This document shows, piece after piece, positions 28,457 through 39,638 of a stretch of 54,655 nucleotides of DNA. The translations under genes and the position numbers were made by a program. The notes below the pieces were generated by a model. That model was not told the origin of the DNA, ran no database searches, and worked only from the letters and a program-made list of their open reading frames with translations. The stretch is from Synechococcales cyanobacterium bin59.metabat.ball.084. Its GTDB lineage: Bacteria > Cyanobacteriota > Cyanobacteriia > Cyanobacteriales > Chamaesiphonaceae. The stretch spans positions 1 through 54,655 of the forward strand of contig JAAFHZ010000012.1 in assembly GCA_013297675.1 (NCBI GenBank), written 5' to 3'. Every line of letters starts with the position of its first letter. The first letter of the stretch is position 1.

Positions 28457-29836
28457 ATGGCAAGAATTAGATTACCTACACCTTTTATACAGTTAATACA
28501 GGGCTTAAAACCAGAAACACTGCTGCTATTGATATCCAAATATCAGACAAAATATCAGGCAACAAATTCTAAAGGACAGTATCTACATTGGAATGATTTT
28601 AAATGGCGAGTTGAGAAAGGTGATGAAGAAGTTGCTGCCTGGATAGCAACTAAGATGGCTCGTCAATCTATCACTAAAGATTTAGTGAATTTACAAGCAG
28701 TGGATAATAAATGCTTTAGTTACTGCATTCCTAATTCGTTGTTTGCTCAGTTACACTCGATCGATACAATGGCTGGTGGTGGCAAGAAAATTAGTGATGG
28801 TTCACTGGTATCTTCTGATGATAAAAACCGATATTTGGTGAAAAGCTTGATGATCGAAGAAGCCATTACTTCATCTCAACTAGAAGGAGCTTCAACTACC
28901 AGAGAAATTGCCAAAGACATGATCCAAAAAGGCTTAGAGCCAAAGGACAAATCTCAACAGATGATTTTAAATAATTATTTGTTAATGAAAAAGGCTGTAG
29001 AGCGAAAAGATGAAGATTTATCGATAGAATTAATTTTAGAGCTACATGAAATTGCTACTCGCAAGGCAATTGAAAATCATGCTGCTTGTGGTGAATTTCG
29101 ACAATCTAATAATATTGTTATTTCTAATTTATATAATGAAAATACTTTCTATCCACCTGACCATGAAACAATTGTATCCAGGCTAACGAATCTCTGTGAA
29201 TTTGCCAATATTGATCACAGCCAAAACGAACCCAGTAATTTTATTCATCCGATTGTAAAGGCAATTATTTTGCACTTTATGATCGGATATATTCATCCTT
29301 TTGGTGATGGCAATGGTAGAACTGCAAGAGCAATTTTTTATTGGAGTATCCTTAAGTCTGGCTATTGGCTATTTGAATATGTTTCAATCAGCAAATTGAT
29401 TCAAGAAAAACGTAATGATTATGACAAATCTTTTATTTATACTGAAACTGATGATTTCGATCTTACTTATTTTATTTATAACCAAGTTGAAACTATCGAC
29501 AAAGCAGTAAAGATTCTGTATGAGCATATAGAGAAAAAACAGCGGGATTTTTATAATTTCATAGGTTGGGTAGAGAAAAATCCAATAGCAAAGAAGCTAA
29601 AACGAGAACAGTTAGAAATATTAAAAGAAGCTGTAAAGTCTCCAGGCAGAGAATTTACAGCAAACCAAGTGGCAGATGATTTTGGTGTTTCTATTAACAC
29701 AGCGAGAAATTATCTGAATAAATTGGTTTCGGAAGAATTTTTAGTTCAAGCCAAAACGAAGAATGGTAAAACAGTAGTTTATTTAGCTCCTGTCAGCCTG
29801 AGATCAAAATTAAACCTTTCATCTCTGGAAAAATAG
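28457..29836 (+). CDS. Fic family protein with N-terminal inhibitory helix and C-terminal wHTH
   Basis: 459 residues. The Fic motif HPFGDGNGRTAR occupies residues 280-291, complete for AMPylation-type transfer. An (S/T)xxxE(G/N) autoinhibitory motif, SSQLEG, with Glu143 identifies a class II Fic. The C-terminal ~80 residues form a winged helix (REFTANQVADDFGVSINTAR). Such Fic-wHTH proteins may AMPylate a protein target and bind their own promoter; the 14-bp inverted repeat upstream is a candidate site. AT-rich composition and absence of HIP1 words around it suggest transfer. Confidence 0.92.
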   Translation: MARIRLPTPFIQLIQGLKPETLLLLISKYQTKYQATNSKGQYLHWNDFKWRVEKGDEEVAAWIATKMARQSITKDLVNLQAVDNKCFSYCIPNSLFAQLHSIDTMAGGGKKISDGSLVSSDDKNRYLVKSLMIEEAITSSQLEGASTTREIAKDMIQKGLEPKDKSQQMILNNYLLMKKAVERKDEDLSIELILELHEIATRKAIENHAACGEFRQSNNIVISNLYNENTFYPPDHETIVSRLTNLCEFANIDHSQNEPSNFIHPIVKAIILHFMIGYIHPFGDGNGRTARAIFYWSILKSGYWLFEYVSISKLIQEKRNDYDKSFIYTETDDFDLTYFIYNQVETIDKAVKILYEHIEKKQRDFYNFIGWVEKNPIAKKLKREQLEILKEAVKSPGREFTANQVADDFGVSINTARNYLNKLVSEEFLVQAKTKNGKTVVYLAPVSLRSKLNLSSLEK

Positions 29837-31911: not shown

Positions 31912-31964
31912 TAGGTGCGATCGGGTAGATGGTTTTGGTTATTTTCTCACAAAAAGTTACCAGG

Positions 31965-33452
31965 CTACTTGGGACGCTTTACTCCTCCTTTGCGTTTGAC
32001 TTGAAACCCATACAAATAAATTTCAGGCATGTTAATTCGCCCATCAGAACGACTTTCAACAACTCCCAATTGCAATAAATATTTCAAAATTTCTTCAGGA
32101 TTACTGGCCGGTGGTTGTCTGTCAGTTCTCCAGATAGTGGATTTTACCGCCTCTAAAAACTTATCCTTTGGCACTGGAGCTTCCAGCCCCTTCAGGCTTA
32201 TTTTAAGGGACTCTAACCAAGGATATTCTTCACCTAACTCTAGGATTCGTGCTTCGGAGGTATCCATTAAAGCTCCTTGTAAATTGGATGGCTGCAGAAG
32301 TGCTCCAGTCTGAAACAGTTGTTGAATTCGCTGTTTTGCAGCTAAGGCAAATAGTTTAAGGAATGAGCGTGGTGCAATTCGGCCACTGGCATCTTGAAGA
32401 TGATTAGGTATCCAGCGATAAGTAAAACCCTTTTTCGGAGTAGTTCCCATATACTTTCCAATCATTTTTTCTATCAATTCTTCAAATAGTTTCTCATCTG
32501 ATGAAACAGCCCAGCCTAATCCGTTTTGATTATTGTTGTTAATTAGTTCTGGGATATTTTGTAAGTACTCAACCATCTCACTGCCAGAGTTCGCAAGCCT
32601 TTTAATTAATAGTTGATATAGCCATGAATGCTTCCACTCCAATTTAACTTGATGAGCTTTTAACTTAGAGGCATCTGGAAATTTTAAAAAGTCTTCTTGA
32701 AATAAATCAGTCCGCAAAAAGATTTTAGGTCGTATTCTATCCCACCGTCGAAAACGTTCCAGCCACAGAGCTAAAAGTTCACGGATCGGATTTGCTAAAG
32801 AAGTATAAGAAGTAACTAATCTGTCTAGTTCATCATAGCTAACAAATAGCCATTCATCTACTTCAAACAGCTTTTGATCTAATTCATCCAAAATGGAGTT
32901 TAATTGCTCAAAGTTCTGATAAACAATAGATTGCCAATCTGATAAGAGTGATAATCTATCTCTTAGAGCCATAGCTATCTCCGCATCCATTTTTTCAACA
33001 ATAAAACCTTTGAATTTAAAGTCTTCTTGCTGTAAGAGTATGCCTAAAACCAGACCAACCCAAAAGCTTCGCCATTGAATATTATCGGCATTAATCATAT
33101 GCTTTTCAATAATTTCTGGAGCTGGGAATTTTTTACTAACTTTCTTTGTTCTACCAAATCCAGCTATCCACGTTGTCTTATTTAAGTCTGGTAAAGATGT
33201 GATATTTAAACTTCTAACTAAATATTCTCTTCCAGAGGGAATCGCCAGTAATCGAAATAGTTCTGTTTTCCCGACACCACGACCGCCTAGTATTAATAAT
33301 GTACTAGGTTCTAGAGCATAACGATAATCAACTATGGGCAAGAAGTTGTTCAAAAATTCTTGGTCTTGATCGCTTTCTTGTTCAGCCGTTCCGCCGCCAG
33401 GCGCAATATTAATAATTAGCTCAAGTAATCTTCTATTATTGACTTCATTCAT
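31965..33452 (-). CDS. P-loop ATPase of a HEPN/ATPase module
   Basis: 495 residues with Walker A GGRGVGKT (56-63) in LLILGGRGVGKTELFRLLA. The middle has SYDELDRL, a possible Walker B/sensor region, and the C-terminus a winged-helix-like segment (LLQLGVVESRSDGRINMP). It resembles P-loop ATPases next to ParA-like proteins in uncharacterised conflict loci. Its start codon overlaps the upstream ATPase stop by 4 bp (ATGA), so translation is coupled. Confidence 0.75.
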   Translation of the reverse strand: MNEVNNRRLLELIINIAPGGGTAEQESDQDQEFLNNFLPIVDYRYALEPSTLLILGGRGVGKTELFRLLAIPSGREYLVRSLNITSLPDLNKTTWIAGFGRTKKVSKKFPAPEIIEKHMINADNIQWRSFWVGLVLGILLQQEDFKFKGFIVEKMDAEIAMALRDRLSLLSDWQSIVYQNFEQLNSILDELDQKLFEVDEWLFVSYDELDRLVTSYTSLANPIRELLALWLERFRRWDRIRPKIFLRTDLFQEDFLKFPDASKLKAHQVKLEWKHSWLYQLLIKRLANSGSEMVEYLQNIPELINNNNQNGLGWAVSSDEKLFEELIEKMIGKYMGTTPKKGFTYRWIPNHLQDASGRIAPRSFLKLFALAAKQRIQQLFQTGALLQPSNLQGALMDTSEARILELGEEYPWLESLKISLKGLEAPVPKDKFLEAVKSTIWRTDRQPPASNPEEILKYLLQLGVVESRSDGRINMPEIYLYGFQVKRKGGVKRPK

Positions 33453-34828
33453 GACCTTGACTCATCCAAATTATTAAATTTACGTTGGAAAATTTCGCAC
33501 AGTTTTTCGGCAATTTTAGAATAAGGTTCATCTGTCATTATTCTAATAAGATTAGAAACTCGATCGAGTTCGTCAAGCACTGTATCATCAGAAAAAAGAG
33601 CGATGTCTCCACGCAAACTATCTTGGTATGGCATGACGATCGGCAAGAATGGAGCACTTTCATCATTAGAATTAGGAACATCTTCAGATTCAGAGTAATA
33701 ATTTTCTTTGAACACAAGGTAGGCTTGCTCTCTAAAACTTGTCAACTCTTTGCCTCTTCCGGGTATGCTAATTGCTGGAGCCATTGCATGAACAAGAATC
33801 AGTGGTAAACGATCATCAATTTCAGGTTTTCCTAGATGACGAATAATATGAGTTAATCCTGTCCAACTTTGGCGTGATTGAGTGCCAAACATGACCACAC
33901 CATGAGAAAGGTTTGTAATAGCTAATCCACCAATATCATGAAAACCAGCTCGTGCATCCATTAAAATAAAATCTAACGGTCTTACGCTAGCTTCTAATTC
34001 CCTCAACATTTCTTTCATTATACTTTTCAAATCACTCATTACAAGATTTTGAAAATCTAACCGAGCCAGCTTTTCCAAGTAATTTTTATCTACTGTTCCA
34101 GCCGAAAACAAATGAATAACTTGACCTTCCTCTCCTAATAAAATTTGATCACTTATTGGACTTGTTCTTAGTCTCCAATCATTTTTCTGAATGGGCTTTT
34201 CTAGTAGGTAATCAATCACACCAACGTCACTAGAGCTATCCGGCAAAAGAATCGTAGCCACACCTGGTGCTTCTAAATCAAGGTCAACAATCGCAACGCG
34301 ATGACCATTACGAGCCAATGTTAATGCTGTTGCGACAAGGGCACTAGTTCTACCTCCTCCTCCTTTAAAGGAGAAGAAAGATACAATGGCCGGTTTGTGC
34401 CCATCATAAACTAGCTCTTCTGACCAAGGTAATTGACTCGATCTACTTTCCGTCCATGCCTGCTTAGCAATATGACGCTCCAGTATGTACCAGCGGGGTA
34501 GAACTAACTCATTGTCCCATTCTGCCCGGAGCCTATCGTTTTTAACGATATCAATTAGAGTTCCATAAGCATCATTATTATTTTTTGGTATCCAGATATC
34601 TTTCCCATAATAATTTCCAAGTTTTTCAGAAAGCAATGCACCTAAAATAGCCGTGTCTGATTCTTCAATAAAATTATCTTGTTGTGGTTCTAAGAACAGT
34701 CTGATTTTCCCTTGCACATCCCGAATAATTGTGACTGAATCTAGCTTCGGAACTAGTAAGGTCAGTATATTTACGTCTTGAAAGCATTCTTTTACTCGAT
34801 CAAACGTTTCACCAAAGTTAATCGCCAT
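33449..34828 (-). CDS. ParA/MinD-like ATPase with KGGGGRT variant motif
   Basis: 459 residues. After about 150 N-terminal residues, a deviant Walker A KGGGGRTS begins at Lys155 in SFFSFKGGGGRTSALVATAL, followed by VAIVDLDLEAPG (switch/Walker A'-like Asp). The usual KGGxGKT Lys is Arg here, as in the KGGVGR-variant ATPases. C-terminally DFILMDARAGFHDIGGL supplies the Walker B region. It is encoded 1 bp after the HEPN gene and overlaps the next ATPase gene by 4 bp. The role is unknown; regulation of the HEPN protein is plausible. Confidence 0.82.
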   Translation of the reverse strand: MAINFGETFDRVKECFQDVNILTLLVPKLDSVTIIRDVQGKIRLFLEPQQDNFIEESDTAILGALLSEKLGNYYGKDIWIPKNNNDAYGTLIDIVKNDRLRAEWDNELVLPRWYILERHIAKQAWTESRSSQLPWSEELVYDGHKPAIVSFFSFKGGGGRTSALVATALTLARNGHRVAIVDLDLEAPGVATILLPDSSSDVGVIDYLLEKPIQKNDWRLRTSPISDQILLGEEGQVIHLFSAGTVDKNYLEKLARLDFQNLVMSDLKSIMKEMLRELEASVRPLDFILMDARAGFHDIGGLAITNLSHGVVMFGTQSRQSWTGLTHIIRHLGKPEIDDRLPLILVHAMAPAISIPGRGKELTSFREQAYLVFKENYYSESEDVPNSNDESAPFLPIVMPYQDSLRGDIALFSDDTVLDELDRVSNLIRIMTDEPYSKIAEKLCEIFQRKFNNLDESRS

Positions 34829-34829
34829 T

Positions 34830-35261
34830 TTAAATATCCTTACTGAAAATTAGGCCATCTAATACTAGTTTTAAGACTGTTTCTTTATATATTGCCTCGG
34901 CACGTTGAACAGCCAACTCTGCTTCAGCTTGACTCCAAAGGCCAGATCTAGCACATCTTCTCTCTGGATGACTTTTGGCTAAAACGGTTTCATCTATGCG
35001 AGAAATTGGGAGCTGTTGATCCAAGATCGGATACAGAGTTCGCAAGCGTTCCATGGCTTTTCCCTCAAGTTCTGTCAGGTCATGACCATATTTTTTAGCT
35101 GTACCCTGACCAGATTTGAAATTGTATTCAATAAGTACTTTGAAGGAACATTCTACAACGTAGCCCGCTAAATAAACAGCATTATCCCACCGCTGCGTAT
35201 CTGCAAGAATTTGGGCATCTTGAAGATGCCTGCTTGCTGCACTAGAAAAAGAGTCTGGCAT
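34830..35261 (-). CDS. HEPN-domain protein
   Basis: About 143 residues from the ATG at 35261 (an in-frame TTG lies seven codons upstream). The HEPN-type helix is recognisable in RWDNAVYLAGYVVECSFKVL. The classical RNase signature R-x4-6-H is not obvious in the expected C-terminal helix, though KSHPERRCARSG is nearby. It leads a tightly packed three-gene unit with two P-loop ATPases, a typical place for a nuclease or adaptor component of a conflict system. Confidence 0.75.
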   Translation of the reverse strand: MPDSFSSAASRHLQDAQILADTQRWDNAVYLAGYVVECSFKVLIEYNFKSGQGTAKKYGHDLTELEGKAMERLRTLYPILDQQLPISRIDETVLAKSHPERRCARSGLWSQAEAELAVQRAEAIYKETVLKLVLDGLIFSKDI

Positions 35262-35421
35262 AATCTTCTCGGGATGGAGCAATTAAAAATGCAGCTAGCA
35301 GTACCCAGGAAGTATATCCGATCAATCGATCGCTCATACCTGAATCTGATACACTGCCCTCGGGGCATACTATAGAGTATCTATCGACTTTAACATTGAG
35401 TTTGAAAAGGAATAGCGAACA

Positions 35422-38982: not shown

Positions 38983-39041
38983 GCTTAGTTGGCAGCTCTC
39001 GTTCAAAAATGGTATAATTGATCTTATTTCCTTCCCTGCTC

Positions 39042-39638
39042 ATGGCCTACAACAACTTCACTTTAGAAACTGTTAAGCACCAGTTTGGGTTGAATCTGAT
39101 TGATTCTTCTTTCTGTGAGTCTCTGCCCCATGCTAATCCCCAACCTGAATTTCTGACTATCTTTCGTCAGTGGTTGCCTTTGGCTCAAAGAGCTAAATCT
39201 GAAAAAGCTAAATCGGAACTTCTGGTCAGTCCTGTTCTGACTGAAGTTAAAAGACTGACTGGTGAACAAATTCAGTTGTTCTCTGGTGAAGAATTCAATG
39301 TCGATAAAGAGCGTGGTTTAAATGGATTCTGTGATTTTCTCTTGAGCAGGTCTACTGCTCCCTATGTGATTGAAGCTCCTATTCTGATGTTGGTAGAAGC
39401 CAAAAGAGGAGAATTAGATGCTGGACTCGGCCAGTGTGTCGCGGAAATGTTTGCGGCGCAATTGTTCAACGAAAATGCTGGAAAAGTAACTACAATTATC
39501 TATGGCTGTGTCACCAGCGGCAAGTTATGGCAGTTTCTTAAGTTGGAAGGTAAGGATGTAAGCATTGATACTAATGAATATTCAGTTACTCCGGTAGAAA
39601 GGATTTTAGGCATTCTCAAGTGGATGGTGGATGGCTAG
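39042..39638 (+). CDS. PD-(D/E)XK-type nuclease-like protein
   Basis: 198 residues from the ATG at 39042 (an in-frame start at 39018 would add eight residues). The core reads GFCDFLL with Asp98 and LMLVEAKRGE with E119-A-K121, followed by Gln131 in LGQCVAEM; this D...ExK...Q pattern is the restriction-endonuclease-like fold. No methyltransferase or other subunit is adjacent. Many cyanobacteria carry such orphan proteins of unknown use; whether it cuts DNA is unproven. Confidence 0.7.
   Translation: MAYNNFTLETVKHQFGLNLIDSSFCESLPHANPQPEFLTIFRQWLPLAQRAKSEKAKSELLVSPVLTEVKRLTGEQIQLFSGEEFNVDKERGLNGFCDFLLSRSTAPYVIEAPILMLVEAKRGELDAGLGQCVAEMFAAQLFNENAGKVTTIIYGCVTSGKLWQFLKLEGKDVSIDTNEYSVTPVERILGILKWMVDG

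Follow-up and report, generated by a model that had tools for sequence, protein, structure and literature searches.

The gene trio and its protein families

The stretch of DNA analysed here (the window) comprises 54,655 nucleotides from Synechococcales cyanobacterium bin59.metabat.ball.084 (contig JAAFHZ010000012.1, positions 1 to 54,655), the genome of which is 4.64 Mb. Its minus strand carries, between positions 31965 and 35261, three consecutive open reading frames (ORFs), designated A, B and C, encoding a HEPN protein and two P-loop ATPases. By their profile matches, these genes are a cyanobacterial member of PDC-M28, a catalogued but uncharacterised phage-defence candidate. Gene A (34830–35261) encodes 143 residues, gene B (33449–34828) 459 residues and gene C (31965–33452) 495 residues. 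A and B are separated by 1 bp, and B and C overlap by 4 bp (tcat on the plus strand, ATGA on the coding strand), a layout that an earlier, sequence-only reading of the window had described exactly to the base. Gene A starts with an ATG at 35261; a TTG at 35282 is also open, and homologues align to the ATG. The nearest homologues are cyanobacterial.

The trio is considered a catalogued defence candidate because PADLOC-DB (release 2.0.0, 2023, the source of the PDC-M28 models) lists all three components, as PDC-M28A, PDC-M28B and PDC-M28C. Individual profile scores place the three adjacent genes in this system, in the same order: PDC-M28A matches gene A with 45.4 bits (E 2.6e-12, residues 1–45 only), PDC-M28B matches gene B with 214.8 bits (E 5.9e-64) and PDC-M28C matches gene C with 284.4 bits (E 4.3e-85), the last two over their full lengths. 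The window copy is diverged, with gene C scoring 284 bits against 525–554 bits for BREX-2 plasmid versions. The PDC candidate set is reportedly from Payne et al., the title of which was confirmed through citations only. A literature search found no publication naming PDC-M28, and the previous statement that no characterised system has this gene order needs only partial revision: the arrangement is already catalogued, but it is still uncharacterised.

The assignment of gene A to the HEPN proteins is supported by its relatives. All eight close homologues match the Pfam HEPN family (PF05168) at E ≤ 0.01, with a best E of 8.3e-7, and a divergent member (locus L100) exceeds the family cut-off at 23.2 bits, while the window copy falls just under it. 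At E ≤ 0.1, the Pfam scan of gene A reported PF05168 and a weak AbiV match and nothing else, and a search of the sequences of solved structures gave no match. As had been pointed out earlier, the window protein lacks RX4-6H, the canonical HEPN RNase motif, and only scattered, non-homologous matches occur elsewhere in the family. The HEPN alignment comprised 57 rows, one of them misassigned (the upstream gene of L140, which does not align and was rejected as a homologue of A). Arg102 is kept in all 57 rows, and Glu37 and Lys41 deviate solely in the misassigned row. Among the trio members, 32 of 33 have His60, as do all 16 fusion-type members (48/49 non-plasmid rows).

An Ex3[KR] motif has been described in HEPN proteins (PMC3710099; Anantharaman et al. 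2013), and the same study proposed that, where HEPN-T and AbiV proteins have lost the motif His, another conserved His, located between helices 2 and 3, could make up an active site with the basic residue that is retained. An alternative-site protein of this kind keeps the basic residue of the motif, has a conserved His N-terminal to it, and carries Ex3[KR]; judged from sequence only, gene A shows this pattern (HEPN-T AF0298 or AbiV type), with E37-x3-K41, H60 and R102. The missing RX4-6H motif had previously led to the suggestion that A may be an adaptor. In this alternative, the HEPN protein would be a non-catalytic adaptor or RNA-binding subunit and B–C the effector, consistent with the finding that HEPN proteins without the motif can work by binding (PMC3710099). 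The suggestion is weakened because Glu37, Lys41, His60 and Arg102 are nearly invariant and match the proposed alternative site; furthermore, B and C yielded no sign of a nuclease domain or of any other effector domain. An adaptor role thus appears unlikely, and the preferred reading is that gene A encodes an effector with a putative alternative site.

Gene B encodes a putative N-terminal alpha/beta domain (residues ~1–140), to which no specific fold is assigned, followed by an ATPase of the MinD/ParA fold (~145–449). It matches NCBIfam NF047398 (KGGVGR-motif variant AAA ATPase) with 173.7 bits (cut-off 90). Its P-loop reads SFKGGGGRTS, and the KGGGGRT Walker A codons (residues 155–161) lie at 34346–34366 on the minus strand, as computed from the gene start. 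The sequence-only reading had singled out KGGGGRT as a variant Walker A with Arg in place of Lys. The substitution is present, but it characterises the whole NF047398 class: among 28 aligned homologues, the change of the P-loop Lys to Arg is invariant and most carry KGGVGRT/S, with Q, A, L and M also found at the Val site. Only the change of Val to Gly is private to the window copy. Gene B retains Lys155 of the signature, Asp182 and Asp184 of A′, and Asp291 of Walker B. In the predicted model (pLDDT 84.5), residues 145–449 resemble MinD, FleN and Soj (FleN/MinD Z 20.9), and the top fold matches are 7ejw and 5j1j (FleN). By sequence, the match to solved structures is limited to the P-loop region.

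This fold, together with the retained signature Lys, A′ and Walker B residues, would suit a ParA-type partition or protein-positioning system. Several features speak against such a role: B scores far below the NCBIfam ParA and MinD cut-offs and is placed in the KGGVGR class, and neither a HEPN protein nor an ORC/STAND ATPase is a partition component. The KGGxGK[ST] pattern of a ParABS partition ATPase is not found in gene B, since Arg occupies the Lys position in all 28 aligned members. Partition is the most remote of the alternatives considered, and highly improbable. A gas-vesicle reading was also considered and set aside.

Gene C matches NF047389 (P-loop ATPase, Sll1717 family) with 111.3 bits (cut-off 75). 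The trio does contain two different ATPases, as had been proposed. Both the Walker A (GGRGVGKT) and Walker B (WLFVSYDELDR) motifs are intact. A search of solved structures by sequence returned one insignificant match, whereas the predicted model (pLDDT 90.4) matches archaeal Orc2/Cdc6, BrxC, archaeal STAND ATPases and the cores of CED-4/NLR proteins. Foldseek E values were 2e-5 for ORC2 (1w5t), 3e-5 for BrxC (9zll) and 8e-5 for STAND (2qen), and VIA Z scores were 13.6 to Orc/Cdc6 and 2fna and 12 to CED-4. Gene C thus models as a member of the ORC/Cdc6-STAND clade of AAA+ ATPases. The protein ends in a basic, near-invariant tail (IYLYGFxVKRxGGVKRPK; residues 478–495; 31968–32021, minus strand), a related form of which occurs in plasmid and fused versions, and which is probably a functional peptide.

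Conservation and natural fusions

The sequence-only reading had called for a search for the trio in other phyla, and regarded a lack of joint conservation as fatal to the idea of a module. Full-length B is present in 9 of 149 relatives, the window genome included, and the other eight loci all hold A, B and C. A scan of GTDB representatives recovered 45 loci, distributed over Cyanobacteriota, Bacillota, Chloroflexota and Planctomycetota. Complete A–B–C operons were found at 34 of these under strict rules, with gaps of −92 to +15 bp, and at three further loci (L096, L099 and L100) A, B and C are all full-length and follow one another in this order. The remaining eight consist of two at contig ends, one with an uncertain start of A, and five broken copies. 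Remote versions of the trio are carried on plasmids of Pseudomonadota and Actinomycetota, and the A–B–C order is maintained across six phyla. That 34 of 45 loci, retrieved independently, share this order even when full length is strictly required excludes chance as an explanation, and the refuting outcome named by the sequence-only reading, a lack of joint conservation, was not observed. In a mirror-tree comparison, the pairwise distances of the three genes are highly correlated (A–B 0.96, A–C 0.92 and B–C 0.97), as expected if the genes travel together. Gene C is patchily distributed (31/386 cyanobacterial genomes, 4/201 Chloroflexota genomes and none of 14 control genomes), and its tree clusters by phylum, with families mixed within the cyanobacteria.

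In 19 cyanobacterial loci, B and C form a single protein of 869–926 residues, and a HEPN gene lies directly upstream in every case (detected by tblastn at L109, and listed as a shortened ORF at L111 and L117). The phylum scan also placed 27 of 39 gene C matches in long frames of the B–C type. Since natural B–C fusions have HEPN upstream in 19/19 loci, they provide strong indirect evidence that B and C act as one unit, partnered by A.

The natural broken copies (L064:9633-10004, L074:9660-10004, L072, L090 and L095) include an in-frame A–B deletion joining the start of HEPN to the end of B, fragments of B, and frame breaks in B or C; gene C often stays open. In a genome from the same family as the window (G005; L055 and L056), an intact HEPN gene near the end of one contig is followed by no more than the initial 39 residues of B, and a second contig has a fragment resembling B next to a distant C; this may be an interrupted or variant copy. 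Annotated phages yielded no gene C homologue, and the patterns applied to viral contigs gave no confirmed one, an absence that holds only at that sensitivity. Complete genomes of E. coli contained no DNA resembling the Enterobacter plasmid copy. A Sinorhizobium plasmid protein (L156:2992-5196), annotated as TIR domain-containing, also matches the ATPase domain of B, and may represent a further effector linked to ATPases of this class.

Mobility, genomic context and proposed function

The trio lies within a stretch of about 3.4 kb (31950–35360) that is absent from a sister species (G001). Both flanking genes have orthologues there (86–87% DNA identity); only 165 bp separates the flanking alignments in G001, against 3.4 kb in the window, revealing an empty site. 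No clear target-site duplication was seen at the insertion edges when aligned to the sister species. The GC content of the trio is 38.5%, compared to 45.0 ± 3.0% for 3.3-kb stretches of the window.

BREX genes flank the trio, in one orientation, at four loci: pglW-A-B-C-pglX in Streptomyces, pglX-A-B-C-pglY-pglZ-brxD in Thiodictyon, pglX-A-B-C-DUF6079-pglZ in Sphaerotilus, and BrxC-PglX-A-B-C-PglX in an Anaerolineales bin. A plasmid copy in Calothrix abuts HmaC. Other cyanobacterial and Bacillota copies have neighbours matching HmaA, PtuA, CBASS effectors and DrmD, amid many housekeeping genes. The earlier proposal of an association with conflict or defence systems is supported by the PDC-M28 profile matches and by the four BREX-flanked loci. 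These loci, and the copy beside HmaC, might also suggest an accessory role in BREX or in other restriction systems, dependent on their core proteins, but no BREX gene adjoins the trio in most loci, the window included, and this role is improbable. Membership of the window trio in a BREX system was rejected for this locus, as there is no PglX, PglZ or BrxC among the scanned adjoining genes (an FAD oxidoreductase, a Fic protein and a LarE-like protein).

Integrases adjoin the plasmid copies of the trio, which would be compatible with a toxin-antitoxin or mobile-element stabilisation module in which HEPN is the toxin, and B, alone or with C, the antitoxin. Such a role was postulated for gene pairs of MAE_18760-type HEPN and ParA/Soj (PMC3710099), so that a HEPN gene beside a ParA-class ATPase has a published precedent. 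The HEPN protein encoded here, however, belongs to PF05168 rather than to the MAE_18760 family, a widely conserved ORC/STAND ATPase of 495 residues would be unusual as an antitoxin, the copies are mostly chromosomal with a patchy distribution, and those flanked by BREX genes point to immunity. A toxin-antitoxin module is rated unlikely, a little below the adaptor alternative, though well above a BREX accessory.

An anti-phage defence function is a probable, though still candidate, role for the trio. The best overall explanation, to which a probability of roughly 0.5 is given, is that of a PDC-M28 member in which C would sense, B would lock, and A would be released as a HEPN effector. In the full mechanism, which we put at somewhat less than an even chance, C would serve as a sensor and assembly platform that engages a nucleic acid or protein of the phage. 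B, with its P-loop Lys fixed as Arg, would bind nucleotide with slow or no turnover, and would act as a nucleotide-state lock joined to C, reporting its state. A would be kept inactive by B–C until infection, when it would be released or activated and would cut or bind RNA, leading to growth arrest (abortive infection). A more specific version is doubtful: a device resembling NLR proteins or the apoptosome, in which the ORC/STAND sensor C and the hydrolysis-impaired, MinD-like lock B would restrain an alternative-site HEPN RNase, a single toxin being gated in two steps by two unlike P-loop ATPases arranged in series.

Several observations weigh against the favoured explanation. A literature search found no published experimental test of PDC-M28, and window gene A scores 20.3 bits against PF05168, below the 22-bit cut-off. 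Plasmid-type HEPN proteins have a His nearby, without clean alignment to the H60 position. ORC-like folds also fit DNA-handling roles besides sensing, and lone gene C homologues occur on Streptomyces plasmids (L151, L152 and L157) with no HEPN or B annotated beside them; as homologues of C exist without A and B, C may serve other functions. The defence neighbours of the cyanobacterial copies are varied and were counted without a random-gene control, and the neighbours of the window trio are mostly housekeeping genes, the exception being, at a distance of about 2 kb, a Fic gene resembling SoFic.

This Fic-domain gene (28457–29836, plus strand; PADLOC SoFic match, 161 bits) is the nearest defence-like gene to the trio. 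Its place is taken by a different gene in G001, and it therefore represents a second nearby accessory gene. Further away are an XisH-like ORF (PF08814; 39658–40286, minus strand) next to a probable XisI ORF, the two forming a pair that is common in cyanobacteria and poorly understood, and a gene at 39018–39638 (plus strand) with a product matching the PADLOC PD_DExK model PDLC01472 (182 bits), which carries a CRISPR-associated label.

Comparison with known systems

The analysis goes beyond the catalogue entry in describing the fused B–C form accompanied by HEPN, the putative alternative site of the HEPN protein, the predicted ORC/STAND fold of C, the empty site, and how widely the system is spread. 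What was an anonymous catalogue entry thereby becomes a concrete model in three parts that can be tested: a widespread, mobile HEPN effector with a non-canonical putative site, under the control of an ORC/STAND ATPase and of a MinD-like ATPase with a fixed Lys-to-Arg change. It becomes directly testable whether HEPN-T/AbiV-type proteins lacking RX4-6H act as RNases, and what role KGGVGR-class MinD/ParA-like domains play in conflict systems.

The MAE_18760-type dyad (PMC3710099) likewise pairs a HEPN gene with a ParA-class ATPase. The window trio differs from it in having a PF05168 HEPN protein without RX4-6H, an altered P-loop and a third gene for an ORC/STAND ATPase. Membership in the dyad was rejected because its family, PF18737, is not matched by gene A at E ≤ 0.1. 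BREX is similar in the fold of BrxC and in flanking the trio at four loci, but gene C encodes ~500 residues compared to ~1200, and no PglX or PglZ gene adjoins the trio in the window.

MinD/ParA-like domains that are predicted to be inactive have been described in VMAP and related conflict systems (PMC7159879; Kaur 2020), a likeness that lies in the association of such domains with conflict systems. The window trio lacks the vWA-MoxR-VMAP ternary core of those systems, and the partners of its MinD-like protein are a HEPN protein and an ORC/STAND ATPase. A parallel for the predicted contact between B and C comes from FleN and FleQ, where a MinD-type ATPase regulates an AAA+ protein by direct contact and solved complexes exist. 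The FleN–FleQ pair acts in flagellar gene regulation, its AAA+ partner is unrelated, and its Walker A is normal. By analogy, it could serve as a model for how B might gate C, two proteins that the natural B–C fusion predicts to be in contact.

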